Source: Candidatus Zixiibacteriota bacterium
Lineage (GTDB): Bacteria; Zixibacteria; MSB-5A5; GN15; FEB-12
NCBI GenBank assembly: GCA_019038695.1
Contig: JAHOYZ010000010.1
Span: forward strand, 186,001 to 250,000
Reading direction: 5' to 3'
DNA: 64,000 bases
How positions within the stretch are numbered: the stretch's first letter is position 1; the number at the start of each line of letters is the position of its first letter. The position numbers and the translations under genes were made by a program. Positions 35,901 through 52,245 of this stretch are shown one piece after another. Below the pieces are notes generated by a model. The model ran no database searches, was not told the DNA's origin, and saw only the letters and a program-made list of their open reading frames with translations.

Positions 35901-36451
35901 TGGTCGGTAGACTTGGGTCAGGTGGGTTGAGGGAGGATGCGTCATTGATCTCATTTAGAGCGACGATCCTGACCTACATGGGTGAGCCGGATAGTGGCTT
36001 GGCGATGCTTCGAGACGCAATGAAGGACCCCAAAGCGACGTCCAGAGACGTCGACGGCTTATATCGACTCACCCTCGCCGATCTTCTCGCGACATCGGGA
36101 AAGTTCGATGAGGCGGTCGATATCGTGCGAAAATTGACAGACGATGAACCGGATTTTCAAAATCAAGTACATCTTGGTTTCCACTACCTTCAGGCTGGTC
36201 GACATGATGAAGCTGTCACTGCACTGGAGGGAGCCCTGGCAACATGGGATGAGAATCGACTCAATAGCGCTAGAACTAAGCAGGTAATGGCTGTCTACTA
36301 CCTCGGTCAGGCTTACGAGGGCGCGGGGCGCACGGACGAGGCAATCGAACAATACGAGACCTTCTTGGACATTTGGAAAAACGCCGATGAAGGGCTGAAA
36401 TCAGTTGAAGATGCGAAAGAACGGCTGGCGAGTTTGAAACATGGAACCTGA
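32894..36451 (+). CDS. Membrane Ser/Thr kinase K3 with TolB-like and long TPR domain
   Basis: A 1185-residue paralog, the longest of the array. Leader NDKTQTHVVLTKG, kinase 26-284 with Lys55, HRD 146-148 and DFG 166-168. A membrane helix (about 296-315) is followed by a TolB-like domain from about 330 (AVLVFRNLSGDPEQD) and an extended TPR array to a C-terminus (ERLASLKHGT) nearly identical to that of K1. I use ATG 32894, which overlaps the K2 stop by 8 bases, has GAGGT upstream and restores the paralogs' common leader; an in-frame upstream GTG/ATG-type extension to 32861 would lie within K2. The stop overlaps K4. Confidence 0.9.
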   Translation: MNSESFDNDKTQTHVVLTKGTTVAHYRIVEKIGAGGMGEVYLAEDTKLKREVALKLLSPHLCQDEECRERFKREAQAAAKLDHPNIVPVFEVGVFKGRPFFAMAHIEGQSLGEVIKEGKLTVSEAINLTMQICEGLHKAHESGVVHRDIKPANIIIDKENRPRLLDFGLATVTGAKKLTKTGSTMGTLGYMSPEQIQGEKTDHRSDLFSVGVILYEMIAGRTPFEGEYEAAIHFNIVHEEAEPLSRYKSGVSGELQQIVGKALSKDVSLRYQHADGIVADLKRLEVGSGPAKKSKLGLWAAVAVVVILAGYFTVDRFMHPDIETTEGWTNSVAVLVFRNLSGDPEQDYFCEGMTDEIIGRLGTIKGLKVTSMQSMLRFKGTDLDLKKIGKELGVENILEGRIQISGDDIRVRAQLIRVEDDAHIWTEKYDRELKSVFAIQDDISRAIAKVLEATLVDSKESFASRHGTDDIEAYNAYVRGRHFWRKRTDENLVKAIEQFELAISLDENYAQAWSGLADAWMLRPGYGNVTQKIAYPKADSAARRALELGPHLAEAHSSWARYLGRRGLLEKAEQSYLKALELNPGYSWAHMWYYTFLLGMGRDPALQFHHLNTAYELDPVSIPVLGNLAHYYYTEGDLDKAVDFCRRQLELAPTSYHAYSTMAWSYVALGDTMMVYRTLDSLEHYAAETWQAHTYRAEVLNQYDEKQEAEVAYRKAIEVAPDNWQPYDRLGRFYSESQRKYQEGEDCFLRAIALDSTQPAPHSGYGHNLRMQGRMDESIEQSRLAMELAPYDPETFRAYGWAIGNGLRRYDEAITYMEKALHLNPRHLFTLTSISLMYANAGQFEEAIQAINDAIDVDRSYTFAQFRKANILVMAGEYDSAGACYRTLHDLLPTDTWSLIRLGQISAQLGDFQTADSFFTICCSLSEPWSRARCRYYALDPLLRQGMISAAIAQAENGIRLDSEEVGDHHLMLWKYISIIDESLRLLSNHAKTLRYIEQAEALVGRLGSGGLREDASLISFRATILTYMGEPDSGLAMLRDAMKDPKATSRDVDGLYRLTLADLLATSGKFDEAVDIVRKLTDDEPDFQNQVHLGFHYLQAGRHDEAVTALEGALATWDENRLNSARTKQVMAVYYLGQAYEGAGRTDEAIEQYETFLDIWKNADEGLKSVEDAKERLASLKHGT

Positions 36452-38696
36452 CGACGACAGAACCCAGACCCACGTGATCCTAACCAAGGGCACGATGGTG
36501 GCGCACTACCGGATAATCGAGAAGATCGGCGCCGGTGGGATGGGTGAGGTGTATCTGGCTGAAGACACCAAGCTTAAGCGGCAGGTCGCCCTCAAGTTCC
36601 TTCCTCCGCATCTGTGCCAGGATGACGATTGTCGTGAGCGTTTCAAACGTGAGGCACAAGCCGCCGCCAAGCTCAATCATACGAATATAGTACACATATA
36701 CGAAGTGGCGGATTTTCAGGGTCGTCCTTTCTTTGCTATGGAACACATTGAAGGCCAGTCGCTCAAAGACATGATCAAGACCGAAGAGTTGAGCCTGAAG
36801 CGCATCTTTGATCTGTCAATCCAGATTTGCGAAGGGCTTGCTGAGGCGCATGAAAAAGAAGTTGTGCACCGCGACATAAAGCCATCCAATATCGTTCTGG
36901 ATACGAAAGGTCGACCACGCCTGCTTGATTTTGGACTCGCCGTTGTCCGAGGTAAAGACCCCTTGACTCGGCCGGGTTCGACCATTGGCACTGTCCAATA
37001 CATGTCGCCCGAGCAAGCGGAAGGAAAGGAAGTCGACCATCGCAGTGACCTTTTTTCATTTGGTGTCGTTCTTTACGAAATGATAACGGGACATGGTCCT
37101 TTTGAGAGTGACAATGAAGCCGCCACACTGCATGCCATAACTCACATCACACCGCCTCAACTTGCCCGATACCGATCTGATGCAACCGATGCTCTGCAGG
37201 CAATTATAGACAAAGCACTGGAGCGTGATCCGGCCATTCGCTACCAGACCGCGGCTGGTCTAATCAGTGATCTCAAGAGAATTGCTCGAGGTACAAAAGC
37301 CCATGTCGTTGCAACGGCGCCCAAACCATCCATCGCCGTACTTCCTTTTGTGAACCTGAGTGCCGACCCGGAGCAAGAGTATTTCTGCGACGGTATGGCC
37401 GAGGAGATAATCAATGCTTTGACTCATATAGACGATCTCCGGGTAATAGCCCGCACATCCGCGTTTGCCTTCAAGGGAAAACAGGAAGATGTGCGCGAGA
37501 TTGGCCGCAAGCTCGACGTCGAAACCCTGCTTGAGGGCAGTGTACGCAAGGCGGGTAATCGTCTGCGTATCACTACACAATTGGTCAAGGTGGCTGATGG
37601 CTCCCATATCTGGTCCGAGCGGTATGATCGTGAGATGGAGGATGTTTTTGCCATTCAGGATGACATCGCCCAGGCCGTCGTAGATAAGATGAGAGTCAAG
37701 CTAGTAAGAAAATCCGGCGAGCCGGTGGTTCGGAAACATACTGATAACCTTGAGGCTTACAGCCTGTTCCTCAAGGGTCGCCATCACCTGTATCAGTTTA
37801 CGGCAGAAGGCTGGAAGAAAAGTTTGGAATGTCTGAACCGCGCCATTGAGCTTGATCCTGACTATGCTATGCCTTACGTCTGGAAGGCGATTGCGTATCA
37901 GAGCCAGGTCTTCTGGGGAGGGATGGCTCCTGACGAGGCTTTCGCAAACTCAACCGCGGCGATTGAGAAGGCTTTACAGCTTGATGATTCGATCGCCGAT
38001 GCCTACAACTTGCAGGCAGTGACCAGTTTTTCGCATGACTGGGATTGGGATAAGGCTGAGAGGACTTTCAAACGAGCGCTGGAACTTGCGCCAACTGTAG
38101 CTCTGATCCACACCAACTACTCTCTCTTTCTGATGGTCCTGAAGCGTTATGATCAGGCTCTCGAGGAAGCCGACATCGCCCGGAAACTTGATCCGCTTTC
38201 GAGTATGGTCAATACGTGGGCGGCAATCGTACCTCTGTTCGCGGGACAGGTTCAGGATTCCATTGACCAACTGAAGGCAATCATCAAGACAGACCCGGAT
38301 TACTGGCAGCCCAACTATCACATGAGCGTAGCCCTCCGGGAAATCGGCCGGATGGATGAAGCCATTGCATCGGCAAAACGAGCCTTTGAGTTGTCCGGGG
38401 GAGCGCCGATTACTCTCACTCAGATCATCTGTTGCTACTATCTGAATGGAGATGTGATCGAAGCAGAGAAGTCCTATGACGAACTCGTGCAATTGGCCCA
38501 AAAGTTATATGTCCCGCCTATGTTCTTCGCCTGGATAAGCTTCGTCAGGAACGACCTTGAGGAAGGCATCGCCTGGCTGGATAAGGCGGAACAGACTCAT
38601 GACTACTGGCTCTGCTGGGCGGCATCCTCGTCCTTTATTGACCGTGAAGCCGATCCGAGAATCGATGCCCTAATAAAAAGGATCGGGCTGACTTAG
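36441..38696 (+). CDS. Soluble Ser/Thr kinase K4 with TolB-like and TPR domains
   Basis: A 751-residue paralog, last of the array. Leader DDDRTQTHVILTKG, kinase 23-280 with Lys52, HRD 143-145 and DFG 163-165; the activation segment shows SRPGS-like divergence (LTRPGSTIGTVQYMSPEQ). There is no membrane helix. A TolB-like domain starts at about 296 (SIAVLPFVNLSADPEQE), then TPRs (about 430-720) and a C-terminus (WLCWAASSSFIDREADPR) of the same type as K2. The ATG lies 11 bases inside K3 with no clear ribosome site, so translation is probably coupled. A GTAGGG palindrome follows the stop at 38700. Confidence 0.9.
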   Translation: MEPDDDRTQTHVILTKGTMVAHYRIIEKIGAGGMGEVYLAEDTKLKRQVALKFLPPHLCQDDDCRERFKREAQAAAKLNHTNIVHIYEVADFQGRPFFAMEHIEGQSLKDMIKTEELSLKRIFDLSIQICEGLAEAHEKEVVHRDIKPSNIVLDTKGRPRLLDFGLAVVRGKDPLTRPGSTIGTVQYMSPEQAEGKEVDHRSDLFSFGVVLYEMITGHGPFESDNEAATLHAITHITPPQLARYRSDATDALQAIIDKALERDPAIRYQTAAGLISDLKRIARGTKAHVVATAPKPSIAVLPFVNLSADPEQEYFCDGMAEEIINALTHIDDLRVIARTSAFAFKGKQEDVREIGRKLDVETLLEGSVRKAGNRLRITTQLVKVADGSHIWSERYDREMEDVFAIQDDIAQAVVDKMRVKLVRKSGEPVVRKHTDNLEAYSLFLKGRHHLYQFTAEGWKKSLECLNRAIELDPDYAMPYVWKAIAYQSQVFWGGMAPDEAFANSTAAIEKALQLDDSIADAYNLQAVTSFSHDWDWDKAERTFKRALELAPTVALIHTNYSLFLMVLKRYDQALEEADIARKLDPLSSMVNTWAAIVPLFAGQVQDSIDQLKAIIKTDPDYWQPNYHMSVALREIGRMDEAIASAKRAFELSGGAPITLTQIICCYYLNGDVIEAEKSYDELVQLAQKLYVPPMFFAWISFVRNDLEEGIAWLDKAEQTHDYWLCWAASSSFIDREADPRIDALIKRIGLT

Positions 38697-38699
38697 TAA

Positions 38700-38728
38700 G
38701 TAGGGCGAAACCCCCTGGTGGTTCCGCC
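38700..38728 (+). repeat. REP-like palindrome, GTAGGG family copy 2
   Basis: GTAGGGCGAAACC (38700-38712), a seven-base loop and GGTTCCGCC (38720-38728) form a hairpin with one wobble. It matches the element at 2214-2243 read on the other strand. It lies 3 bases beyond the stop of the last kinase. Confidence 0.6.
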
Positions 38729-38873
38729 AGGCATCTGAGGACATACTCCCGAGGCCCGAGAATCTCAAGAATGTTTTTGAAGGATTTGAGCGGATGTTTG
38801 ATAAAGGTGAGTAAATGAGACATTTGATGCCGCATTACAGACTCAATCCTGAACTGGAGCCGAACAAAGCGTT

Positions 38874-39251
38874 ATGAAATTCACCAGAATCTATGCCGAC
38901 GAATACGGGGAGTCACACTTCGAGGATGTTGAGGTCAATTTCGATACGATTGATTTCGCTCCCCCTGCCCCACCATTGGGTGTCTCTCAACCGACCCCGG
39001 CCCAGCGGTACCGTTATCTGAGAGGGCCGGCCGGCTGGGTTGGGGACTGGCATCCCGCGCCGGAGCGCCATCTAATGATATACTTGTCGGGCGAAGTTGA
39101 AGCCGAAACCAGCGATGGAGAAATCCGTCGTTTTGGACCCGGTAGCGTGATCCTATTAGAAGACACTTTCGGCCGGGGGCACCGGAGCCGTGTGCTGGGA
39201 CTGACCGACGTGCTGGTGGCGGTTGTGCAGTTGGACGTTCCCCCGGAATAG
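38874..39251 (+). CDS. Cupin-fold protein
   Basis: A 125-residue single-domain cupin. The core shows WHPAPERHLMIYLSGEVE and then RRFGPGSVILLEDTFGRGH, matching the two cupin motifs with His and acidic metal ligands in place. Such small cupins can be isomerases, dioxygenases or ligand binders; none can be singled out. It is cytoplasmic. The ribosome site is weak (GGAG about 14 bases upstream of the ATG). It follows the kinase array by 177 bases, which hold only the palindrome at 38700; co-transcription is possible but not shown. Confidence 0.8.
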   Translation: MKFTRIYADEYGESHFEDVEVNFDTIDFAPPAPPLGVSQPTPAQRYRYLRGPAGWVGDWHPAPERHLMIYLSGEVEAETSDGEIRRFGPGSVILLEDTFGRGHRSRVLGLTDVLVAVVQLDVPPE

Positions 39252-39340
39252 CAGAACCTCGTTACCTGTTCAAGAAGACAGGCTTACCTGTGGCGGTTTT
39301 TGCCTTGCATCAATCGTAATCGACAGTTTACTTGCCTCGT

Positions 39341-40546
39341 ATGAAACGTGCTCTTCTGATCCTTATTGTTATTATGCTGGCAACCGGTGCTGTGGCCCAG
39401 GAAACGTTCTACTCTATGTTTTCCTACACCCACTATGTCCCCAGCGTGTTAATCAATGACAGGTCCGTGTCGCTTCAAAGTGACCTGTACCCGCAATGGT
39501 ACCACGAACACTCGGCGGTGCGAGACATGCGTTGGGTACGGCAGAACGATAGCGCCATTACTGCCTTCTGGGAGATTCAGGGAGACACAATCCTGCATAT
39601 CCTCTGCGAGTTGTCCGGTGTCGAGTGGCAGGAAAGTGACATCGACATTCACCTCGTACGGTATTTTCCGTCAATGGGTTCATCGGAGCCGCTTATCATT
39701 CCCCTCGGCGGAATCATGACCGGCGCATTAATTGAGGCGGTGCCCACCGACCGGCGCCTTAAGCTCAATCTTGTTTACCAACTGGCCAAGCGCATTCTGG
39801 CCCAGACGGTTCAGCCCCGTTTCAATGTTACCATGGGTATTGCCGGCCATCCCCTTATGCGGCCCGGTCCTTACCGGCGGGACAACCTGGCCCTGCTATT
39901 GGCTCTGGCCACCTGCGAGAATGTACTGGGCATGGATTCGACCTTTGATGCCTTCCAGTCTAACTGGTGGCAACGCCAGGCTCCGGGTCGGGAGATTCTC
40001 AAACGCCATTTCCTGCAGCAATGGATTCTTACCCCCGAACAGACACTGGCTGACTGGATTACACAGGAGCCGTACGGTTCACATTTGGTTGCCCTGACCC
40101 GACCGCCGAGACTACCCCAACGAACAACAGCAGAACCACCGAAGCACTTCGTCGAAGGCCTGCCGCTCAAGGGTCTCCTTGGTTTTTCGGTAAGCATAGA
40201 CAGTCAGGGATTCCTGGTAGTGGATTCAATGGATATTTATCGTCTTGGCTATGCCTGTGGGCTGCGGTCCGATGACCGTATTCGCACGGTTGATGCGGTT
40301 CGTGTGCGAAGCCATAAGACACTGGTCGAAAAGATATTCGAGACTTACTCCAACGGCGGTGCGACGCTTAGGGTAGTCCGCGATGACCAGACAATTTCAG
40401 TCATCATTCAGCCTATGCTCCTGCCGTGGTTGGAGGATGATGAGGAATACTATGACGATGAGTACTTCATGGACGACTACCCGATCGATCCAGACTCATT
40501 GCCTGTGACGACTGATTCTGTATCTTCCGACTACTTCGACGATTGA
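39341..40546 (+). CDS. Exported PDZ-domain protein, function unknown
   Basis: A 401-residue exported protein: signal peptide MKRALLILIVIMLATGAVAQ with cleavage after AVAQ, a region of unknown fold (20-270), and one PDZ domain (about 275-375, GFSVSIDSQGFLVVDSM, LGYACGLRSDDRI). A strongly acidic C-terminal tail follows (DDEEYYDDEYF). There is no serine protease triad in the remainder, so it is not a DegP-type protease. It probably binds peptides or partner proteins in the periplasm. I chose ATG 39341; a TTG three codons earlier is also open. No clear ribosome site. Confidence 0.75.
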   Translation: MKRALLILIVIMLATGAVAQETFYSMFSYTHYVPSVLINDRSVSLQSDLYPQWYHEHSAVRDMRWVRQNDSAITAFWEIQGDTILHILCELSGVEWQESDIDIHLVRYFPSMGSSEPLIIPLGGIMTGALIEAVPTDRRLKLNLVYQLAKRILAQTVQPRFNVTMGIAGHPLMRPGPYRRDNLALLLALATCENVLGMDSTFDAFQSNWWQRQAPGREILKRHFLQQWILTPEQTLADWITQEPYGSHLVALTRPPRLPQRTTAEPPKHFVEGLPLKGLLGFSVSIDSQGFLVVDSMDIYRLGYACGLRSDDRIRTVDAVRVRSHKTLVEKIFETYSNGGATLRVVRDDQTISVIIQPMLLPWLEDDEEYYDDEYFMDDYPIDPDSLPVTTDSVSSDYFDD

Positions 40547-40699
40547 TTCGGGGTGTAGACCGATAATCCCACGCCCGCAGATAGACCATCCATCCCATAC
40601 CGAAACCTATAGCGTTTTCAAAACCTGTTAGTTATAATTCCGCCCAAATAAGCAAATTATCCGCCTTCTCAGGCGGCGAATTTATCGGAGTGATACAAG

Positions 40700-41233
40700 A
40701 TGAAAGAACTGGTTGTCAACCTCCTGCCCGAGGTTAAAGAAATCAAGGATCAGAACCTGCGGGACAAAGTAATCGCCTGCTGGACAGACGCCATTGAGTT
40801 TCGTGGCTGGTCCGAAGAATTGCTGCGCAGCATGCCGTTTACGCTGTTGGCAGAAAATGTAGAGATTACATTCATTGACCATGTCCGGGCTGTGTGCCGT
40901 ATGTGTATGGCTTGTGACGATGTTTTAATCAATGTCCACGAAGATCGCCGCACTAAAGTGAACCGTGATTATCTCATAGCCGGAGCATTGGTCGCCGATG
41001 TCGGCAAACTGATGGAGTTCGAGATCGTTGACGGCAAGCCGGTCAAATCCGACTATGGCAAACATATCCGTCATCCGTTCAGTGGTGTCGGACTGGCTTT
41101 TAAGCACGATATGCCCTCGGAAGTAATGCACGTCATCGCGACTCACTCAAAAGAAGGAGCCGGCGAGAAACGTCTACCGGAGAGCATCATTTTCCACCAC
41201 TGTGATTTCATTGATTTTGATTTGGTAAAGTAG
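40700..41233 (+). CDS. HD-superfamily protein with modified metal site
   Basis: A 177-residue HD-domain protein. H61 (FIDHVRAVC), D100 (LVADVGK), H125 (IRHPFSG), H149 (ATHSKEG), and H166-H167 with D169 line up with the HD-domain ligands, but the His of the HD doublet is Ala99, which may weaken metal binding. HD proteins are typically phosphohydrolases of nucleotides or related substrates; none can be named here. GGAG precedes the ATG by about 9 bases. It is followed by an unrelated gene and then by homoaconitase, all on the plus strand, suggesting it originally headed that metabolic unit. Confidence 0.75.
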   Translation: MKELVVNLLPEVKEIKDQNLRDKVIACWTDAIEFRGWSEELLRSMPFTLLAENVEITFIDHVRAVCRMCMACDDVLINVHEDRRTKVNRDYLIAGALVADVGKLMEFEIVDGKPVKSDYGKHIRHPFSGVGLAFKHDMPSEVMHVIATHSKEGAGEKRLPESIIFHHCDFIDFDLVK

Positions 41234-41243
41234 GGGAACTGAT

Positions 41244-41909
41244 ATGAGTGAGGGTATAGAGGGACTTGTTCCAACCAATGATGACAGCTCAAAGGTCATT
41301 GAGTTGCTTTCCTTGATTTCTAGCGCCGTACCTTACCTTGGTGGACCGCTAAGTAACATCCTTTCGGGTCAGTTGGTCAAAAGGCGATTCGAGCGCGTAG
41401 ACGGATGTCTCCGGAACTTGGCAACTCGGCTAGATAGGCACCAATCCGATGTGACTGAGAATTACGTTAAAACGGAAGAGTTCGATGAACTGCTTGAACA
41501 AACGCTTAGGCGGGTTTCCGAAGAGCGAAACGAAGAGAAGAGGAAACTGTATCAGTCGTTCTTGTATCACGACATTTCTTTACCTCAGGGGCAATATGAT
41601 GATAAGATGAAGATGCTTAGGCTAATTGAGCAGGTGAGCCCCCGTGGCATCATGCTGCTCAAGGCATTGAATTATCCACCTGATCCCAATCCACCCGGGT
41701 GGGGTGGATCACCCGGTGACACTCTGAGAAGGCGTCTTGACTCCGGTATCCACCAATACATTCCCGAACTCTTAGCAGAGTTGAATCGACTTGGAATGGC
41801 GAGGGCAGGCGGACTGAACACGATGATGACATCAGGCGGCGCGGAAGAGTTGCATAACTGGATACAGCCTCTCGGGACCGAACTTCTAAGATTCATCGAA
41901 AGCCCATAG
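41244..41909 (+). CDS. Hypothetical protein, 221 aa (probable accessory gene)
   Basis: I do not recognise this protein. It has a hydrophobic, Gly/Pro-rich stretch near residues 24-45 (AVPYLGGPLSNILSG), a charged helical centre rich in Arg and Glu (about 50-105, coiled-coil-like), and a C-terminal region resembling a winged-helix-like tail. AGGGGA precedes the ATG. It sits 10 bases after the HD gene and 56 before homoaconitase, and is unrelated in character to both, so it looks like an insertion in a metabolic cluster. A defence or stress role is possible but unsupported by a motif. Confidence 0.6.
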   Translation: MSEGIEGLVPTNDDSSKVIELLSLISSAVPYLGGPLSNILSGQLVKRRFERVDGCLRNLATRLDRHQSDVTENYVKTEEFDELLEQTLRRVSEERNEEKRKLYQSFLYHDISLPQGQYDDKMKMLRLIEQVSPRGIMLLKALNYPPDPNPPGWGGSPGDTLRRRLDSGIHQYIPELLAELNRLGMARAGGLNTMMTSGGAEELHNWIQPLGTELLRFIESP

Positions 41910-41965
41910 CTGCGACGGACTAGCCGATATGTTCGAAGAGTGCACCAAACATACGAGACACACTT

Positions 41966-43939
41966 ATGACACAAAACCTGGTTGAAAAAATCACCCAGCG
42001 CTTCGCCCTTGATCTGCCTGAGGGGTACATTGTCCGGGCGGGAGACTATGTTTCCATTCGTCCGGCCCATATCCTTACCCACGACAACACCGGCGCAGTT
42101 ATGCCGAAATTCAAAGCTATTGGTGCGACAAAGATAGCCAATCCGCGCCAACCAGTCTACGCGCTGGATCACAACGTTCAGGATACGAGCGAAGCCAACC
42201 TGGCCAAGTATGTCCGGATCGAAGCCTTCGCCAAGGAAATGGACGTCGATTTCTACCCGGCCGGACGAGGTATCGGCCATCAGATTATGTGCGAGGAGGG
42301 TTACGCCTTTCCGGGCACAATGGTGGTCGCATCCGACTCCCATGCCAACATGTATGGCGGGCTGGGTTGTCTGGGTACACCGGTTGTACGCACCGATGCC
42401 GCCGCTATCTGGGCAACCAGTCGAACCTGGTGGCAGGTGCCGCCGGTAGCTCGATGCACCCTGACGGGCAAACTCAAACCGGGCGTGACGGGCAAAGATG
42501 TGATCATTACGTTGTGCGGTTTGTTCAACAATAACGAAGTACTCAACCATGCCGTCGAGTTCGCCGGACAAGGAGTGTCTTCTCTATCTGTTGACGAGCG
42601 ACTGGCTATTGCGAATATGACCACCGAATGGGGCGCGTTGGTGGGGTTGTTCCCGATAGATGGCATAGCCATTGATTGGTTGAAGCGTCGTATAGATGTA
42701 GTGGCGCGGCGCGGTTTGGCGGGAGTGCCATCCGATGTCGATGGTGGTGGAACCACCCATCCTCGTTTGAACAGGCAGCGTCTGAGCCAACTACAGGGCG
42801 AGAACCTCGCTGCAGATGAAAGCGCTGTGTACGCCCGAGTGGTCACGCTTGATTTGTCTACGGTTACACCTCACGTGGCAGGACCGGACAACGTCAAGAC
42901 GATGTCCTCGGTGGCTGAGATGGCCAAGCAGAAAATGACAATCCACAAAGCGTATCTGGTTTCGTGTGTAAACAGTCGCCGCAATGATATTGCCGAAGCT
43001 GCCAGAGTCGTGAAAGGCAAGAAGGTGGCCGATGGAGTTGAGTTCTATGTGGCTGCTGCATCCAATGAAGTACAGGCCGACGCTGAAGCTGACGGGTCAT
43101 GGAATGATCTTTTGGAAGCGGGCGCTATTCCTCTCGCACCGGGGTGCGGACCTTGTATAGGATTGGGTGTTGGTCTCCTGGGCGAAGACGAAGTCGGCAT
43201 TTCAGCCACAAATCGCAATTTCAAAGGCCGAATGGGCGCACCAAGCGCCAAAGCATTTCTGGCCTCACCCGCTGTAGTGGCGGCGTCAGCTGTCGCCGGG
43301 TTTATAACCGGACCAACCGAGTTTGAACAGGTCGAAGCGATTCGCTCCTATAAAGAGAACGCGCCTGTAGAAACAAGTGATGATGTCACCGTTTCAATCG
43401 TCGATGGCTTCGCTGAGAGAATAACCGGACGTATCATCTTCTGCCATCAGGATAATCTCAACACTGATGGTATCTATCCCGGCAAGTATACTTACATCGA
43501 TGATTTCACGCCCGAACAGCAGGCCGGGGTCGTGATGGAAAACTACGATCCTGAGTTTACGAAGCTGGTAGATAAAGGTGATATCGTAGTTGGCGGGTTT
43601 ACATTTGGATCGGGTTCCTCACGCGAACAGGCCGCGACGGCGTTCAAGTATCGCGGTATCAGCATGGTGATTGCCGGATCGTTTTCCCAGACCTATAAGC
43701 GCAACGCGATCAACAATGGTTTCCTGGTGATTGAATGTCCGGAACTGGTAAACGAACTTCGTTCGACCTATGGAACCGACAAGCTGACAGTGGTCACTGA
43801 GTTGACCATGACAGTAGATTTCGCTAAGGCAAAGATAACAGTTGGAGACAAAGTGTATAAGATAGCTCCGTTGGGGGCAGCGGCTCAGGAATTGGTCGTC
43901 ACGGATGGTTTGGAGAATTGGGTGAAGGCGAGGTTGTAG
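41966..43939 (+). CDS. Homoaconitase-like aconitase-family hydratase (fused large and small domains)
   Basis: A 657-residue aconitase-superfamily enzyme with both LeuC-like and LeuD-like (swivel) domains in one chain. [4Fe-4S] ligands are Cys near 334 (SCVNSR) and the CGPC pair near 394-397. DFYPAGRGIGHQIM, NMYGGLGCLGTPVVRTDAA and IANMTTEWGALVGLFPIDG strongly resemble fungal Lys4 homoaconitase; the swivel domain has FTFGSGSSREQAATAFKYRG. Lys4 hydrates homoaconitate to homoisocitrate in the 2-aminoadipate route, but this bacterial enzyme may act on citrate, methylcitrate or another 2-hydroxyacid. Its partner downstream is a PrpD-family protein, separated by an inserted HEPN-like gene. Confidence 0.82.
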   Translation: MTQNLVEKITQRFALDLPEGYIVRAGDYVSIRPAHILTHDNTGAVMPKFKAIGATKIANPRQPVYALDHNVQDTSEANLAKYVRIEAFAKEMDVDFYPAGRGIGHQIMCEEGYAFPGTMVVASDSHANMYGGLGCLGTPVVRTDAAAIWATSRTWWQVPPVARCTLTGKLKPGVTGKDVIITLCGLFNNNEVLNHAVEFAGQGVSSLSVDERLAIANMTTEWGALVGLFPIDGIAIDWLKRRIDVVARRGLAGVPSDVDGGGTTHPRLNRQRLSQLQGENLAADESAVYARVVTLDLSTVTPHVAGPDNVKTMSSVAEMAKQKMTIHKAYLVSCVNSRRNDIAEAARVVKGKKVADGVEFYVAAASNEVQADAEADGSWNDLLEAGAIPLAPGCGPCIGLGVGLLGEDEVGISATNRNFKGRMGAPSAKAFLASPAVVAASAVAGFITGPTEFEQVEAIRSYKENAPVETSDDVTVSIVDGFAERITGRIIFCHQDNLNTDGIYPGKYTYIDDFTPEQQAGVVMENYDPEFTKLVDKGDIVVGGFTFGSGSSREQAATAFKYRGISMVIAGSFSQTYKRNAINNGFLVIECPELVNELRSTYGTDKLTVVTELTMTVDFAKAKITVGDKVYKIAPLGAAAQELVVTDGLENWVKARL

Positions 43940-43970
43940 AAAGAGTTATTAGGAAGGGACAAACAATGTC

Positions 43971-43997
43971 TGTCATTCCTGCGAAAGCAGGAATCTA
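43971..43997. repeat. Short palindromic repeat (ATTCCTGC-GAAA-GCAGGAAT)
   Basis: A perfect 8-bp stem (43975-43982 with 43987-43994) with a GAAA loop, in the context TGTCATTCCTGCGAAAGCAG. This sequence is, from memory, a very common interspersed palindrome in bacterial genomes. It lies just upstream of the HEPN-like gene, inside an otherwise metabolic cluster. Confidence 0.55.
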
Positions 43998-44035
43998 GGG
44001 AGATCGAATGGACATCATACTTTGTGAAGTAGTCT

Positions 44036-44842
44036 ATGGGCAAAGATAAGCCACCTTTTACACCTACTATTGAGGGCTTTAAGTTCTCAGATATTTTTGA
44101 AAATTTCATGGCTCAGGCAGGGATGGCTAGACTATTCCTCACGGTCGTTTCCTCAGGTATCATACACGGGGGGGACCAATACAGGAAGAGTCTGTCAGGC
44201 ACTTTTGAAGAAATGCGACCGGGAGGACCGCTTGCACATCTGCTGGTAGACGCCAAGGAATTCTTTAAGTCTGGTGAAGCCAAGATCTTGCTTGATAAAG
44301 CCGTCGCAGGTGCTATGGAAACATCTCAGCAGGCGACGGCCAGTGCTGCGCTCGTCTACGCTCACTCAGCGTTGGAGGCGCTAGTTGATGCCTTTCTGTC
44401 TCTAGCTTCTGAGGTCGATCAGACGGTCTTCGAGAGGATCATTGCGAAGAAACAAGTGAAGGTGGGCGAGGTGGTTGATAAAGGTATTGATCGTATTCTG
44501 TCTGAATGTACCCGTGATTATGTCTGCAAGCAGAAGAAGGAATCTCTGCGAAAAAAGACAAGTCTGCTGAGTACAATTTGCGCACCAGCACAAGCTGACT
44601 TCAACACGGGAAAGTACAAGTACTCCCAGAATACGATTGATGGCATTGACAGGAAGCGCCATGCAGTGATCCATCAACTCGATTTTTCGATCACCATTAA
44701 GGAGATAGAGACCGACATGGACTACTTCTATTGGCTTGGACTGTACTTCATGATTCTGATGTCCAAGAAGTTTGGCCTTAAGCATATTCCTGGCCGCGAT
44801 GCTCGCGAGCGAGTTGCGAAAGCATATGGTATTGACTACTGA
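44036..44842 (+). CDS. HEPN-like domain protein (probable accessory gene)
   Basis: A 268-residue soluble, helical protein. Near residues 206-213 the sequence RKRHAVIH provides an Rx4H-type motif, the signature of HEPN nucleases, placed at the end of a helix-rich region with an earlier ALVYAHSALEALVDAF helix typical of HEPN folds. HEPN proteins are often RNases in toxin-antitoxin or abortive infection systems; no antitoxin partner is seen beside it. No ribosome site precedes the ATG. It is bracketed by a TGTCATTCCTGC palindrome upstream and a GTAGGGCAGGAGC palindrome downstream. The family assignment rests on this motif only. Confidence 0.55.
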   Translation: MGKDKPPFTPTIEGFKFSDIFENFMAQAGMARLFLTVVSSGIIHGGDQYRKSLSGTFEEMRPGGPLAHLLVDAKEFFKSGEAKILLDKAVAGAMETSQQATASAALVYAHSALEALVDAFLSLASEVDQTVFERIIAKKQVKVGEVVDKGIDRILSECTRDYVCKQKKESLRKKTSLLSTICAPAQADFNTGKYKYSQNTIDGIDRKRHAVIHQLDFSITIKEIETDMDYFYWLGLYFMILMSKKFGLKHIPGRDARERVAKAYGIDY

Positions 44843-44852
44843 TAAAGGACTC

Positions 44853-44885
44853 GTAGGGCAGGAGCCCTTAGTGCTCCTGCCCTAC
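44853..44885. repeat. REP-like palindrome GTAGGGCAGGAGC, perfect copy
   Basis: A perfect 13-bp inverted repeat (44853-44865 with 44873-44885) with a 7-base loop. A decayed copy lies at 2259-2285. It begins 10 bases past the HEPN-like stop codon. Confidence 0.72.
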
Positions 44886-44945
44886 AGGAGTGACATATAG
44901 AGAGAATACGATAACACAAATAGCAAAACACATAAGGCGAAACCA

Positions 44946-46316
44946 ATGACCGAAAAACCTATCTCCCAACGAATCGCTGAGTTCGCTGTCGGACTCAAAT
45001 ACGAAGACCTTCCAGCTGAAGTCGTCAACGAAGTCAAACGCTATCTCTACGACTCCATTGGCTGCTCCTACGGCGGCTACCACACCAAGGATGTGAATAT
45101 CCTCCGCGGCATTTACACAGGCATGGGCGGCACCGAAGAGGCTACTTTGCTCGGATTCGGCGACAAAATGCCGGCTGTCAATGCTACGCTGGTCAACTCG
45201 TTAATGATCCGCGCTCTCGATTTCAACGACATCTATTGGAAAGAAGACCCCTCGCATCCGTCCGACCTTATACCGGCCGCGCTGTCGGTCGGTGAGTTGG
45301 TCGATGCGTCGATGAAAGATATCATTGTCGCTATCGTGCTGGCCTATGAGTTTGAACAACGGTTGTGCGAGTTTGGCAAACCGGGTGTCCGCGAACGCAA
45401 ATGGCATCACGCCACATTGACCCAGTTTGTCTCGCCCATCGTAGCCGGCAAATTGCTTGGTTTGACTGTCGAACAGATGGTCAATGCCATAGGCATCAGT
45501 GGTTCCCACAATCACACTATCGGATGTCCGACTGCGGGCGCGTTGACGATGATGAAAAACACAGTCGATCCGATGGCGGTCCAGAGCGGCGTTTTTGCGG
45601 CGCTGATGGCGCAAAAAGGTTATACCGGCACCGTAGCCGTGTTCGAGGGCAAAGAGGGGTTGATGGATTGTTTCGGAGATGCCTGGGCGCCGAAGGCTCT
45701 TTTAGGAGGGTTGGGCGATTCGTATAGAATTATGCAGTGCAGCATGAAGGCGTTCCCGACCGAGGCGTTGACGCATACGCATATCTCTGCCACGCTCAAG
45801 AATGTCGTTCCTAACAAAATCACGTCTGACCAGATCGAAAGTGTTACAGTGACGACTATTGCCCGGGCCTGTGATATCCTGTTTGATTCCCACAAATATC
45901 GTCCGGAATCGCGCGAAACAGCCGACCATTCTTTGCCGTACTGTATTGCTGTGGCGCTGGTGGATCATAAGATTTCGGTCCAGTCGTTCTCCGAGGAAAA
46001 GCTCAAAGACAAGGCTATCTGGGAAGTGATTGACAAGATCAAGGGAGTGGCATCGGACGAGTTTGAGAAGATGTTCCCCGAGAAGCAGCCCTCGAAAGTG
46101 GTTGTGAAAACCAAGGACGGCAAAGAATACTCGGAGTATCTTGAGTATCCGAAAGGTGATCCGCGGGAGCCGATGACTATTGACGACCTGAGGTCCAAGT
46201 TTGGTGGCAATGCTGCTGGTTTGCTTGATGAAGCGCGTCAGAAAAGTGTCGAGGAGATGATTTTCTCCTGCGAGAAAATTTCCTGCCGCGAGTTCATGGC
46301 GAAGCTGGTGGTGTGA
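44946..46316 (+). CDS. MmgE/PrpD family protein
   Basis: A 456-residue MmgE/PrpD-family protein, normal length for the family. Typical elements are the N-terminal LKYEDLPAEVVNEVKRYLYD, ALDFNDIYWKEDPSHPSD, then GISGSHNHT and KAFPTEALTHTHI, and the late SLPYCIAVALVD. Members include 2-methylcitrate dehydratase and related dehydratases acting on tricarboxylic acids in the cytoplasm. AAGG lies 10 bases upstream of the ATG. It follows homoaconitase on the same strand, with the HEPN-like gene and two palindromes in between. A bidirectional terminator separates it from convergent pruA. Confidence 0.87.
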   Translation: MTEKPISQRIAEFAVGLKYEDLPAEVVNEVKRYLYDSIGCSYGGYHTKDVNILRGIYTGMGGTEEATLLGFGDKMPAVNATLVNSLMIRALDFNDIYWKEDPSHPSDLIPAALSVGELVDASMKDIIVAIVLAYEFEQRLCEFGKPGVRERKWHHATLTQFVSPIVAGKLLGLTVEQMVNAIGISGSHNHTIGCPTAGALTMMKNTVDPMAVQSGVFAALMAQKGYTGTVAVFEGKEGLMDCFGDAWAPKALLGGLGDSYRIMQCSMKAFPTEALTHTHISATLKNVVPNKITSDQIESVTVTTIARACDILFDSHKYRPESRETADHSLPYCIAVALVDHKISVQSFSEEKLKDKAIWEVIDKIKGVASDEFEKMFPEKQPSKVVVKTKDGKEYSEYLEYPKGDPREPMTIDDLRSKFGGNAAGLLDEARQKSVEEMIFSCEKISCREFMAKLVV

Positions 46317-46345
46317 GTTAGAGTAAATAAGTTGAGCCAACAGAA

Positions 46346-46386
46346 AAGGCCGCCGGATTTTCATATCCGACGGCCTTATTCTTTTT
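46346..46386. terminator. Bidirectional rho-independent terminator
   Basis: AAGGCCG plus CGGAT (46346-46358) pair with ATCCG plus CGGCCTT (46365-46377), with one internal mismatch. T-rich sequence follows on the plus strand and A-rich sequence precedes, so it can stop both the PrpD gene and the convergent pruA gene. Confidence 0.88.
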
Positions 46387-46412
46387 ACGAATATCCCTGG
46401 GGGCTAATAAGC

Positions 46413-48026
46413 TCACCCCATGAACGGGTATTTGTAGTCTTTCGGTGCCACAAAGGTTTCTTTCACGCTCCGAGGTGAGGTCCACCGCAGCATATTCTGA
46501 ATACCACCCGCTTTGTCGTTAGTACCTGAGGCACGACCGCCGCCAAATGGCTGTTGCCCTACTACGGCACCGGTAGGTTTGTCATTGATATAGAAGTTGC
46601 CGGCCGCATGACGCAGTGTCCGCTCGGCCAATGCAACCGCTTTGCGATCGACGGCGAAGATAGCGCCGGTCAGTGCATACGGCGATGTCTTGTCGCAAGT
46701 GTGCAACGTCTCAGCGAATTTCTCATCATCGTAGACATAAATTGTCACTACCGGACCAAAGATTTCCTCTTCCATCAACTTGAAATGCGGATCGGTGGTC
46801 ACTACGACAGTTGGGTCAATGAACCAGCCTTTGGAATCGTCGTACTTTCCACCACACAGAATCTCGGCGTCTTTGTGATCTTTAGCGTAATCGACATACT
46901 CAACAATTGAGCGATAAGCAGACTCATCTATAATGGCATTGAAGAAATTCGTAAAGTTTTCAGGGTCGCCCATCTTGATCGAATTAACCTGGGCTACGAG
47001 TTTCTTTTTGATCTCCGGCCAGAGCGATTTGGGCAGATAGCAGCGCGACGAGGCCGAACATTTCTGACCCTGGAACTCGAATGAGCCACGTGTAATGGCA
47101 GTTACCAGCATGTCAACATTGGCAGAGTTGTGGGCTACGATGAAATCCTTGCCGCCCGTCTCACCGACGATGCGCGGGTACGCTTTGTACTTGGCTATGT
47201 TTTCACCGACCGTTTTCCACATCATCTGGAACACACCGGTTGAACCAGTGAAATGGATGCCTGCCAGATTTTCGTTACGCAAGACTGCTTCACCAATTGC
47301 CGCCCCGCGAGCGAAGATCATATTGACTACGCCATCGGGAAGACCAGCTTCGCGGAGTATCTTCATCAGAAAATGCGAAGTGTAAACTGCGGTAGAGGCT
47401 GGTTTCCAGACGGATACGTTACCCATGATGGCCGGAGCCGTCGGCAGATTACCGTTGATGGAAACGAAGTTAAACGGCGTCACCGAAAACACAAAACCTT
47501 CCAGCGGACGGTGATCCATGCGGTCCCAGATCAGGGGAGCACTCTGGGGCTGGATGTCCGCTATCTGTTGTCCGTAGTGACAATTGAACCTGAAGAAATC
47601 GGCCAGTTCACAAACGGCATCGATCTCCGCCTGATAGATTGTCTTTGAATGAGCCAGCATTGTGGCCGCGTTGATCACATAACGATAGGGGCCAGCCAGC
47701 AAATCAGCGGCTTTTAGAAACACAGCGGCGCGTTGTTCCCAGGGCATAAACGCCCATGTCTTCTGAGCCTCCAGTGCTGTTTTGACGGCCATCTTAACTT
47801 CCGTCTCGCCGCCCTGGTGGTAGTATCCCAGGACCAATTTGTGATCGTGAGGAGCGGTGATCTTGATTCTGTTGCCGGTGGTGACTTCCTTCCCGTCGAT
47901 TACCATTGGGATATCGATCGGGTTGGCTTTCAGCTCCGCCAGAACTTTCTCAACACCGGCGCGCTCGGCTGAACCGGGAGCGTAGTCAAGAATCGGTTCG
48001 TTCTTCGGAATAGGGACTCGGTACAT
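46413..48026 (-). CDS. pruA: L-glutamate gamma-semialdehyde (1-pyrroline-5-carboxylate) dehydrogenase
   Basis: A 537-residue aldehyde dehydrogenase of the stand-alone P5CDH group (ALDH4A1-like). The catalytic Cys is in GQKCSASSR and the general base Glu in VGETGGKDF. The Rossmann motif GSTGVFQMM, the N-terminal start IPKNEPILDYAPGSAER and the C-terminal PFGGGRASGTNDKAGG are characteristic. It oxidises P5C to glutamate with NAD+, the second step of proline breakdown. No proline dehydrogenase gene lies within the window, so the putA/prodh partner is elsewhere. It is convergent with the PrpD-family gene and shares its terminator. Confidence 0.9.
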   Translation of the reverse strand: MYRVPIPKNEPILDYAPGSAERAGVEKVLAELKANPIDIPMVIDGKEVTTGNRIKITAPHDHKLVLGYYHQGGETEVKMAVKTALEAQKTWAFMPWEQRAAVFLKAADLLAGPYRYVINAATMLAHSKTIYQAEIDAVCELADFFRFNCHYGQQIADIQPQSAPLIWDRMDHRPLEGFVFSVTPFNFVSINGNLPTAPAIMGNVSVWKPASTAVYTSHFLMKILREAGLPDGVVNMIFARGAAIGEAVLRNENLAGIHFTGSTGVFQMMWKTVGENIAKYKAYPRIVGETGGKDFIVAHNSANVDMLVTAITRGSFEFQGQKCSASSRCYLPKSLWPEIKKKLVAQVNSIKMGDPENFTNFFNAIIDESAYRSIVEYVDYAKDHKDAEILCGGKYDDSKGWFIDPTVVVTTDPHFKLMEEEIFGPVVTIYVYDDEKFAETLHTCDKTSPYALTGAIFAVDRKAVALAERTLRHAAGNFYINDKPTGAVVGQQPFGGGRASGTNDKAGGIQNMLRWTSPRSVKETFVAPKDYKYPFMG

Positions 48027-48294
48027 TTCTGGAAATCCTCCTTACATATCTATTTTCATCACATCGCTTACACAACAATATGTCAACCAGGCTCAGGCAA
48101 AGTACTGCCTTATGAGAGACCGGTTCATCCCGCCAAGACAAAGAGCCCTGACCGGGATTGCATGATAAAGAGAAAGCGAGCTTTGGGCAAGACTAAGGCA
48201 ACTTATTTCGGAGTGATTCCCTGGGCAAGAATACGAATATTTGATCGATAAATGAACTCGGTCGGGACCTCATGCAACCCGAATGCAGCCTAAT

Positions 48295-49272
48295 TCAGAC
48301 TTGGGTTTTTTCGAGAGCCAGTCCAGAACCGAGGAGGTGGATGAACTCCACCAGGATGCGTCGGTCGAATTTGCCGGTATCTTCTCTCATTTTCATCAAA
48401 ACCTGGAAAGGGGTTGGCTTCACCATAAACCCGTCACTGGAATGAAGAGTCTCATCATAATGATCACAGATAGCCACTATACGCCCCGCCTTGCTGATCT
48501 GGGATGCCCTCAATTCGTGGGGGAAACCGGAGCCGTCCAGCCGTTCCTGATGTTCGAGAATGGGAAACAGAGCACTTCGAGGTACAACTTCAACACTCTT
48601 AAGCATATCAGTTCCAATGACCGGGTATCTCTTCAGGCGTGAGTTCGAAACATGCGTTTTGTTGTCAGCCCGGAAATAGTAGTTGGGGTCAATGATCCTC
48701 TTTCCGATCTCATGCAGGAGAGCACCTACACCCAGTCCATGCAGCAAATCACCGTCCTCAATGCCACAACGAAGGCCCAGCAGTATCGCAAGGTTGCCTA
48801 CGTTGATGGCGTGAGCTATTGGGAATGTAGTTGTAGGTCGGCTACTAGTCATGACCCGTTGGGTCTGGTCACCCTGAACAGCCAGGGCGACGTGGTTACG
48901 ACATTGATCAACAGTTCCTCGTATCGCAGCTTCTGATCGGGGATCAGTAAGAACCTGATCCAGAACACCTACTGATATCTCGGTCAGACTCTCAAGCTTG
49001 GTTTCAACCGACACTGATTCGTCCCGAAGTAAGTAGGGTAATCTCCTTATCATGAATTCCTGAAGCTTGCCCTTCTGCGATGCCGGCACATAGAGTGTTT
49101 CTTGCCCCTTGGTCTTGAGGTTATCGAGGTCTTTCTGGGCTATGCTGACGTTACTACGTCGAAATAACCTGAGAGAATCAGCCATTTCTTGGTACAGGTC
49201 AAATTTGCAAACCGAATCTGCCGTAATTGAATCAAGACCGATGGCGAGGAAATCGGGGCTATTGAGAGGCAT
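48295..49272 (-). CDS. Degenerate HD-GYP paralog, probably inactive
   Basis: A 325-residue paralog of the HD-GYP protein at 1117-2130, with the same N-terminal domain (FDLYQEM matching FDLYIEV) and a C-terminal HD-GYP-like domain. Key ligands have changed: HD is H187-E188, the following His is Tyr216 (RYPVIG for HPxxG), and the HH pair is H241-Q242. GYP has become GSGFP (247-251). Loss of three ligands suggests it does not hydrolyse c-di-GMP and may bind it or act as a regulator. Weak ribosome site. It lies 0.25 kb from tRNA-Glu on the same strand. Confidence 0.82.
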   Translation of the reverse strand: MPLNSPDFLAIGLDSITADSVCKFDLYQEMADSLRLFRRSNVSIAQKDLDNLKTKGQETLYVPASQKGKLQEFMIRRLPYLLRDESVSVETKLESLTEISVGVLDQVLTDPRSEAAIRGTVDQCRNHVALAVQGDQTQRVMTSSRPTTTFPIAHAINVGNLAILLGLRCGIEDGDLLHGLGVGALLHEIGKRIIDPNYYFRADNKTHVSNSRLKRYPVIGTDMLKSVEVVPRSALFPILEHQERLDGSGFPHELRASQISKAGRIVAICDHYDETLHSSDGFMVKPTPFQVLMKMREDTGKFDRRILVEFIHLLGSGLALEKTQV

Positions 49273-51279: not shown

Positions 51280-52245
51280 CTAGAACGGAAGGTCTACATG
51301 TTCGTATTTACCCTTGTAAGCGATGTGCCCATCAATCGTGTGAATGATTGTATAATTCCTTTGCGGAGATTCAAACGAAAACCCATTTTGTGGCTCGGTG
51401 TAATCACGTGAAATAACCCCCTTTGAGAAACAGAACTCAAACATGTATTGGTATTGCTCCTCACTCATCTTGTTATAGCTAATACTCAGACCGTTCTCAC
51501 GTAAATTGACGCTTGTAACGAACTGTTGCCTTCTATGAAAACAAAGAGGTCCAAACTTCGTCCGACCTCCATATTTTGCTCGTAGCACGGGATCTAGTAA
51601 ATTCAGAAGTGTTACACGCTCAGCGTCGGAGCGACAAACCAGATATGCCAGGTGATCATCCAACGATAGTCTTCTCGGTATAACTACTTCTGCACACCGA
51701 CTCGCAACTATTGTACGCTTGAACTGAGGATCAGACATCCCGGTACCATCATCGTGATATATCTTTGAAAAATCCAACATAGATAGATCAGCTGTATCGT
51801 CATAGGTTTGAGAACTCTGCAGAGCGAGGTTCTGTTCGCTAAACCTCATATCGGGGATTGAAAGAACACTCTTTGACGAAAACAACAGGTACACCGGTAC
51901 AGGGCAATGAGCGTCGTGCTCAGTCTTGAGATTGCCACCTAAGGTAAAACCCTCAATATGCCATAATGGTGGGGTTTTTGGACGAAAATACAATCTCACG
52001 AAATCCCCGATCCAGTCCGGTGAGTTCTGGAGTACGCTCTGGCTGGCCGAATCACACTTAAGTAACGAACCGCTCTTAGCATTATTCCGGCTGAGTAGGT
52101 AGCCATTCATCAGAATCGCGGGGATATTATCTATGTCGGTGTAGTGAAATAGAAAATTCGGCCAGAAGCGTTTGTTCTTGTATTTAACTCGCAAGTTGTC
52201 AATGAATTGTCGAACATCATCTTTGATTGGAAAAGACGTGTTCAT
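51280..52245 (-). CDS. darT: DarT-like DNA ADP-ribosyltransferase toxin (DUF4433)
   Basis: A 321-residue DUF4433 protein, longer than compact DarT toxins. Characteristic elements are the NAD-binding LFHYTDIDNIPAILMNGYLL, VRLYFRPKTPPLWH, and CAEVVIPRRLSLD with the catalytic-type Glu about residue 187. DarT enzymes transfer ADP-ribose to bases in single-stranded DNA, blocking replication, and act in toxin-antitoxin and phage defence. Its ATG overlaps the stop of darG by 4 bases (ATGA), so the antitoxin gene is upstream. The C-terminal 100 residues (FCFSKGVISRDY region) are extra relative to the minimal toxin. Confidence 0.85.
   Translation of the reverse strand: MNTSFPIKDDVRQFIDNLRVKYKNKRFWPNFLFHYTDIDNIPAILMNGYLLSRNNAKSGSLLKCDSASQSVLQNSPDWIGDFVRLYFRPKTPPLWHIEGFTLGGNLKTEHDAHCPVPVYLLFSSKSVLSIPDMRFSEQNLALQSSQTYDDTADLSMLDFSKIYHDDGTGMSDPQFKRTIVASRCAEVVIPRRLSLDDHLAYLVCRSDAERVTLLNLLDPVLRAKYGGRTKFGPLCFHRRQQFVTSVNLRENGLSISYNKMSEEQYQYMFEFCFSKGVISRDYTEPQNGFSFESPQRNYTIIHTIDGHIAYKGKYEHVDLPF

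Follow-up and report, generated by a model that had tools for sequence, protein, structure and literature searches.

A gap between homoaconitase and PrpD genes that appears to gain and lose accessory genes in a family of Zixiibacteriota

Introduction

Does a conserved metabolic operon of an uncultivated bacterium contain a site at which accessory genes are gained repeatedly, and are the palindromes found there the ends of what is gained? This question was raised by a stretch of 64,000 nucleotides from a Candidatus Zixiibacteriota genome (GCA_019038695.1, contig JAHOYZ010000010.1, positions 186,001 to 250,000; hereafter, the window). In the window, genes for an HD-domain-like protein (HD), a homoaconitase-like protein (ACO), and an MmgE/PrpD family protein (PrpD) are accompanied by two further genes: u221, which encodes a protein of 221 aa, between HD and ACO, and a HEPN-like gene between ACO and PrpD. 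The window genome is referred to as G000 (the window lies on its contig 10) and its sister species as G001 (locus L031). A preliminary description of this DNA had regarded both genes as foreign-looking, the second as bracketed by palindromes, and the site as a repeated insertion spot for accessory or defence genes. Accessory-gene hotspots are usually studied at integrase landing sites in well-sampled species; a slot that takes mostly one gene, inside a metabolic operon from an uncultivated phylum, is relevant to the movement and expression of individual defence genes.

The best explanation of the whole, with a probability of about 0.62, was that the HD-ACO-PrpD operon has a permissive ACO-PrpD gap, which repeatedly gains and loses accessory genes. 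In this family of Zixiibacteriota, the gap would gain and lose such genes mostly singly; in G000, it would hold a HEPN-like, probably RNase-type, gene of defence or conflict, and u221 would have entered the tight HD-ACO gap separately. The site was recurrent, as had been proposed, on the evidence of comparative occupancy rather than of the palindromes.

Occupancy of the two gaps

Both gaps were measured between alignment ends in the ACO regions fetched from family genomes. The ACO-PrpD gap was measurable in 29 family genomes of 20 genera. Excluded were 14 of the 54 family genomes, without an ACO match at E 1e-60; G001, in which PrpD is a remnant; G008, G030, and G066, with no PrpD in the fetched stretch; G003, G015, G034, G072, and G074, at contig ends; and G005 and G065, whose junction lay outside the fetched sequence. 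The gap was 639–1715 bases long in 9 of the 29 genomes and 30–266 bases long in the remaining 20. Clean junctions, for which the preliminary description had proposed to look, were present in many relatives. Small genes were searched for in gaps of at least 500 bases only.

Besides the HEPN-like gene of G000, the occupied gaps contained genes for AbiJ in G031 (PADLOC 9.7e-22; Abi_C 1.7e-18), a Mrr-type nuclease in G069 (Mrr_cat 8.8e-7), a PD-(D/E)XK-like protein in G009 (PDDEXK_5 8e-4, below the cut-off), a calcineurin-like phosphoesterase in G021 (Metallophos), followed by further non-conserved sequence, a transglutaminase-like lipoprotein in G029 (Transglut_core), and proteins of 202 and 245 aa in G004 and G033, respectively. 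The G075 gap had no frame above 90 aa and held a remnant related to the G029 gene. The cargo comprised eight families without BLAST similarity to one another. Occupied gaps were spread over seven genera. The two species of genus g9 (G009 and G033) carried different cargo; in genera g4, g20, and g29, occupied and empty gaps were found side by side.

The HD-ACO gap was occupied in 2 of 30 family genomes, G000 (u221) and G032 (two genes), and the proposed repeated insertion spot was thus upheld for the ACO-PrpD gap rather than for both. One of the G032 genes was distantly related to the ACO-PrpD cargo of G033 (E 1.7e-10). All 11 inserted genes of the two gaps lay in operon direction, as judged for six by a Pfam match on the strand (one below the cut-off) and for the others by the longest open frame or by homology. 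Pfam scans, which covered both window genes and nine cargo proteins from relatives but not the G075 remnant, revealed no recombinase family.

At the order level, a transporter-like gene (about 420–450 aa, MFS-like by eye) was located 3' of ACO in all seven relatives fetched (L038, L039, L040, L045, L046, L049, and L050; 24 searched), at the position of the family's variable gap.

The McsB and PNP loci supplied five further conserved, co-directional junctions as controls (144 cases; best 30 of 49 genomes with a match for McsB and best 30 of 47 for PNP). One control junction exceeded 500 bases, the DivIVA-PNP gap of G077 (849 bases), which contained only short open frames of 65–129 aa. Two larger DivIVA-PNP gaps (459 and 471 bases) were overstated because a second alignment piece showed DivIVA reaching closer. 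The ACO-PrpD gap was occupied significantly more often than the controls (9/29 vs. 1/144; Fisher p 2.9e-7). With conserved flanks and with variable cargo more often than control junctions, it had the features of a defence or accessory hotspot.

Several observations weigh against repeated gain and loss of accessory genes. The p-value was weaker against the loosest control, DivIVA-PNP (1/26; 0.013), and was 0.021 for ACO-PrpD against HD-ACO. Tight operons make a lenient comparison, and the p-values are optimistic because the genomes are related and the counts are not independent. Just four of the nine inserts looked defence-like. The cargo family common to G029 and G075, which belong to different genera (33% identity over 106 aa), may go back to a single old insertion that other genomes have lost. 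For the window cargo, the HEPN assignment was below the curated cut-off, the structure model of the protein was poor (mean predicted local distance difference test score, pLDDT, of 39), and its homolog in G027 had no Pfam match at E 0.1.

The shared cargo of G029 and G075 also fits a different history, in which the accessory genes are ancestral members of the operon that were lost many times, with little or nothing inserted. The transporter-like gene of the order-level relatives and the HEPN-like gene decaying in G001 agree with it. Ancestral status would then be required for every one of some eight unrelated families at a single gap; moreover, both u221 and the HEPN-like gene have homologs located elsewhere in other genomes, and even the sister species yielded no u221. 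Such a history was considered improbable. Repeated gain and loss was preferred on the patchy presence, clean junctions, mostly unrelated cargo, single orientation, and decay in the sister species.

Distribution of the two genes and timing in the sister species

Conservation of both genes at this site across relatives would have contradicted insertion, and it was not observed. In the 54 family genomes, u221 occurred once (the window genome only) and the HEPN-like gene three times (G000, G001, and G027). The latter was at the ACO-PrpD site only in G000 and, as a decayed 3' fragment, in G001; the G027 homolog was 33% identical and located elsewhere, among co-directional acyl-CoA-metabolism-type genes (names by eye). 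When the search was extended to the phylum (132 genomes), the HEPN-like total stayed at three, and u221 was additionally found in three same-order genomes (44%, 29%, and one fragment). A u221 homolog was present in G040, a same-order relative (public locus L198).

In G001, the HD-ACO junction was 14 bases long and lacked u221. The region 3' of ACO contained a slightly altered copy of the first, TGTC-ended palindrome, then the last 95 HEPN-like codons, in frame and 80% identical (67% over 119 residues with one stop in another search), followed by sequence that matches PrpD in its first codons, and then unrelated genes. The second, GTAG-ended palindrome was absent, and 18 bases separated the HEPN remnant from the PrpD start. 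Because G001 keeps an in-frame remnant at the same site, the HEPN-like gene was probably there before the two species split and then decayed in G001. The comparison suggested that u221 either arrived later in G000 or was cleanly lost in G001. The GTAG palindrome most likely arrived after the HEPN-like gene, and the two palindromes probably arrived at different times, since the sister species has the first alone.

Between G000 and G001, synonymous divergence (dS) over the 95 shared HEPN codons was 0.43–0.85, compared with 1.0–1.8 for HD and ACO. The ratio of nonsynonymous to synonymous divergence (dN/dS) was 0.12–0.31 for the HEPN segment and 0.03–0.07 for HD and ACO. Third-position identity in codons for the same residue was 49/76 for HEPN, 93/160 for HD, and 287/552 for ACO. 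The 95 shared codons are too short a stretch on which to base a claim that G000 and G001 recently exchanged this segment.

The foreign look of the two genes was modest. Codon adaptation was low (u221, 0.60; HEPN-like, 0.67) compared with HD, ACO, and PrpD (0.73–0.78), which themselves belong to the reference set. Two further window genes were as low as the HEPN-like gene (0.66 and 0.66), and the guanine and cytosine content was 0.50 for u221 and 0.48 for the HEPN-like gene, against 0.49–0.54 for HD, ACO, and PrpD.

The palindromes as REP elements

Both palindromes were confirmed by pattern match, palindrome listing, and folding; none of 200 shuffles folded as well as either of them (z −5.2 and −4.0). 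At 43971, the pattern was matched exactly, whereas shuffled sequence was expected to give no match. The one at 44853 had been called perfect, which held for the outer 13 nt, while its 16-nt arms were 94% complementary. The GTAG 11-mer GTAGGGCAGGA had 35 hits at 33 places in the genome (palindrome status not checked per hit), and the TGTC palindrome TGTCATTCC had 18 hits at up to three mismatches; the reversed controls gave 0 in both cases. In the available part of PMC3733652, two superfamilies of repetitive extragenic palindromic (REP) elements are described, GTAG repeats and CGTC repeats, the tag of the latter being changed to TGTC in many (tags CGTC, TGTC, or CCTC). The palindrome at 44853, within 20–40 bp, GTAG-tagged, and with many dispersed copies, could be placed in the first superfamily, and the tagged palindrome at 43971, also with dispersed copies, in the second.

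Palindromes on both sides of the cargo were found by the strict scan in G000 and G031 only, and by eye also in G009 and G033. Of the ACO-PrpD gaps, 6 of the 9 occupied and 3 of the 20 empty ones had palindromes in the strict scan (p 0.010). Five of the 18 TGTC-REP hits were within 200 bases of a GTAGGGCAGGA copy (e.g., C28:61195-61251, C32:44424-44470, and C7:212831-212935); this clustering was computed with the whole genome available and would be less extreme for intergenic DNA alone. The genome also encodes five Y1_Tnp proteins. These findings would suit a REP-bounded composite element, a mobile unit ended by the two palindromes with the HEPN-like gene as its cargo, whose mobility would come from a RAYT-type Y1 transposase or from REP-to-REP recombination. 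Such a unit was judged quite unlikely. The two palindromes belong to different families, and G001 has the first without the second, although it retains the gene remnant between this place and PrpD. Palindromes were absent from the occupied gaps of G069, G029, and G075 in the strict scan and from the surroundings of u221 in the palindrome listing, and were present in the empty junctions of G036, G071, and G032. Longer spacers give REPs more room, which alone could produce the association, and REPs in general lie mostly downstream of genes in the part of PMC3733652 available. No direct repeat of at least 9 bases, the range covered by the test, bracketed the HEPN-like gene, and no long target-site duplication of the kind suggested was found; a 10-base direct repeat pairs 43980 with 44815, the latter inside the gene.

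The palindromes were therefore rejected as element ends, because they are two different dispersed REP families and the GTAG one is missing in the sister species. Under repeated gain and loss, REP elements would gather in the spacer independently of the cargo, and the hairpins that they form in RNA may protect the mRNA or lower the expression of the gene that follows. The GTAG palindrome was terminator-like on the minus strand only.

The Y1_Tnp family also covers IS200 transposases. Flanking GTAGGGCAGGA copies, at distances of about 1.3 and 0.7 kb, were found only for the Y1_Tnp gene on contig 13 (C13). That gene and its inverted GTAGGGCAGGA copies (L203, 191-2518) form a candidate loose REPtron.

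REPs may have a role as landing sites, because some insertion sequence (IS) elements can use them as targets, according to the part of PMC1525189 available. A speculative and rather improbable variant can be formulated, in which the ACO-PrpD gap is a dedicated one-gene expression slot: lineages would exchange single defence-like genes with REPs as landing or recombination sites and without an integrase, and the swappable defence gene would be expressed by constitutive read-through from the housekeeping promoter. No open-licence PubMed Central paper joining REP with defence systems and anti-phage was found.

The HEPN-like protein

The 268-aa protein matched RiboL-PSP-HEPN (PF18735) with E 0.0049 and 17.2 bits. 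Because this score is below the curated cut-off of 28.4, it is called HEPN-like only, not a PF18735 member; the family name given in the preliminary description was retained in this weaker sense. The sole Pfam match and the sole PADLOC match (CARF_HEPN, E 0.012) were both weak and both HEPN. R208 and H213, which agree with the HEPN R-x4-6-H motif, were invariant in 3 of 3 aligned relatives, the decayed copy included. The HEPN fold has four helices, and the low-confidence model of the protein was nearly wholly helical. There was no NCBIfam match at E 0.01, and the search of solved structures gave nothing below E 0.17. No homologs were found in GTDB genome contigs, viral contigs, plasmids, or phages. 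The sub-threshold score, the lack of an NCBIfam match or a solved relative, and the poor model would be expected if the gene encoded an unrelated helical protein with R-x4-H by chance. In view of the two HEPN matches and the invariant residues, this was regarded as the less likely case, one with appreciable weight all the same.

In the part of PMC3710099 available, Ribo L-PSP-HEPN is listed with "Yes" in a motif column (the heading being outside that part) and is described as distantly related to AbiF and AbiD, and AbiJ is listed as a HEPN family. If the HEPN assignment holds, the nine ACO-PrpD inserts include two HEPN proteins, each from a separate family. The protein would be an RNase acting in abortive-infection style, as predicted from its R-x4-H motif and from published knowledge of the HEPN superfamily. 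As for a toxin-antitoxin pair, no antitoxin gene was adjacent, the neighbours being ACO and PrpD. No open-licence PubMed Central paper joining HEPN and RiboL-PSP was found.

The u221 protein

No match to u221 was found in Pfam or PADLOC (E up to 1) or in NCBIfam (E up to 0.01); PHROG matches were weak (best E 0.0029), with function unknown in PHROG. The model, built from eight aligned sequences (its own included), was helical with a pLDDT of 85. Residues 132–221 were winged-helix-like, of MarR type, with a middling Z (best 7.4, tied with a designed protein), and the resemblance may reflect a common arrangement only. No PDB or viral-model match was found at E 0.001 or better.

Homologs with 38–47% identity occurred at six public loci, in Deltaproteobacteria, Bacteroidales, Desulfobacterales, Nitrospirota, and one unclassified metagenome-assembled genome; none was found in viral contigs or plasmids. 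Conflict genes were nearby at 3 of the 6 loci, the neighbourhood scan covering eight neighbour proteins from L193 to L196 only. In L196, the homolog neighboured type I restriction subunits together with an HNH nuclease; in L195, a SIR2-like protein (just below the cut-off) was encoded about 2.4 kb away, and in L194, HepT was 1.2 kb away. The chance that u221 is an accessory conflict gene was put at about even. The protein belongs to an uncharacterised family, patchily distributed over phyla, several members of which lie close to defence genes.

An unverified phage scaffold from human faeces (L204, the phage record MT836525.1) encoded at 3953-4666 a u221 relative of 237 aa, which was 30% identical over 59% of u221.

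Layout and transcription of the cluster

The features of the cluster are listed in Table 1. All five genes lie on one strand, as had been described.

Table 1. Features of the HD to PrpD cluster (positions in the window).
Feature	Position	Strand	Remarks
HD-domain-like protein, 177 aa	40700..41233	+	conserved upstream gene of the cluster
u221, 221 aa	41244..41909	+	species-specific accessory gene in the HD-ACO gap
Homoaconitase-like protein (ACO), 657 aa	41966..43939	+	TIGR00139 over cut-off
TGTC-ended palindromic repeat	43971..43995	+	CGTC/TGTC REP superfamily; exact pattern match
HEPN-like protein, 268 aa	44036..44842	+	accessory gene in the ACO-PrpD gap; R-x4-H (R208, H213)
GTAG-ended palindromic repeat	44853..44885	+	GTAG REP superfamily; 16-nt arms
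MmgE/PrpD family protein, 456 aa	44946..46316	+	conserved downstream gene; PF03972, PF19305
Hairpin, then T-run, 3' of PrpD	46346..46377	.	−23.5 kcal/mol, z −3.7

ACO matched the NCBIfam homoaconitase model with 843 bits against a cut-off of 530. PrpD matched the MmgE_PrpD_N and MmgE_PrpD_C domains and was under the prpD equivalog cut-offs. The HD match was under both curated cut-offs (19.9 vs. 22 bits; 21.2 vs. 27.6 bits), and the HD protein was 75–92% identical in the 13 fetched regions having HD beside ACO. An HD-like small protein was encoded 5' of homoaconitase in 30 of 30 family genomes with both in the fetched stretch.

The simplest reading of the layout is one transcription unit from HD to PrpD. 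The hairpin and T-run 3' of PrpD likely mark its end, and the same hairpin also lies at the end of a convergent aldehyde dehydrogenase gene. In a consensus scan of 40550–45000, the operon strand had no sigma-70-like promoter and the opposite strand had two, against 4.5 expected from shuffles. This says little about read-through, because the scan found none before HD either. Terminator-like sites numbered 7, against 4.0 expected, and no Rfam family was found in 38000–48500 at the gathering threshold. Read-through from the operon may provide the transcription of the cargo; this would account for the persistence of inserts in operon direction only.

Elsewhere in the window, two tandem Ser/Thr protein kinase-TPR genes (1196 and 751 aa; by eye), overlapping end to start, occupy 32861-38696. 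A pair of DarT-like (PF14487, E 1.1e-20) and Macro-domain (PF01661, E 1.6e-17) genes at 51280-53153 on the minus strand forms a DarTG-type module. It is co-directional between genes for Memo/AMMECR1 and a PNP-family phosphorylase, and among the best 30 of 47 PNP loci (1.5 kb flanks) it was present only in the window genome.

Comparison with known systems

The u221 homologs at other loci are orphans of no named family that was found, some near type I restriction-modification, SIR2-like, and HepT genes; unlike these defence-adjacent orphans, u221 in the window stands alone in an operon. The HEPN-like protein resembles the HEPN superfamily of PMC3710099 in its R-x4-H motif, weak profile match, and accessory distribution, and AbiJ, a HEPN family in that source, fills the same gap in G031. 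Unlike the HEPN systems in the part of PMC3710099 available, no fused partner domain was found in the window protein.

The palindromes resemble the REPs of PMC3733652: one has the GTAG end in a 33-bp dispersed palindrome, the other the TGTC variant of CGTC, and both lie downstream of genes. In contrast to those REPs, their link to a RAYT is loose in the window genome. The GTAG hosts named in the available part of that paper are Proteobacteria, Cyanobacteria, Chloroflexi, and the PVC superphylum; here, both REP types coexist in Zixiibacteriota.

No paper on the ACO-PrpD gap was found in the open-licence PubMed Central literature, nor, by title, a Zixibacteria defence paper on it. In the part of PMC10121019 available, 41 hotspots of E. 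coli are reported, whose islands are mostly well characterised mobile elements. A hotspot with three or fewer genes is counted there as empty, so a slot such as the ACO-PrpD gap would be passed over. Like the E. coli hotspots, the gap has conserved flanks and variable cargo, including Abi- and restriction-type genes, and is empty in most relatives. Unlike them, it lies inside a co-directional metabolic operon, mostly holds one gene, on the operon strand only, and no integrase or transposase was found in the insert. Uncharacterised conflict genes may be present in this gap elsewhere among the Zixiibacteriota. The ACO-PrpD gap thus joins the known accessory-gene hotspots, and is unusual in that no recombinase was found and in its mostly single-gene, operon-directed cargo.

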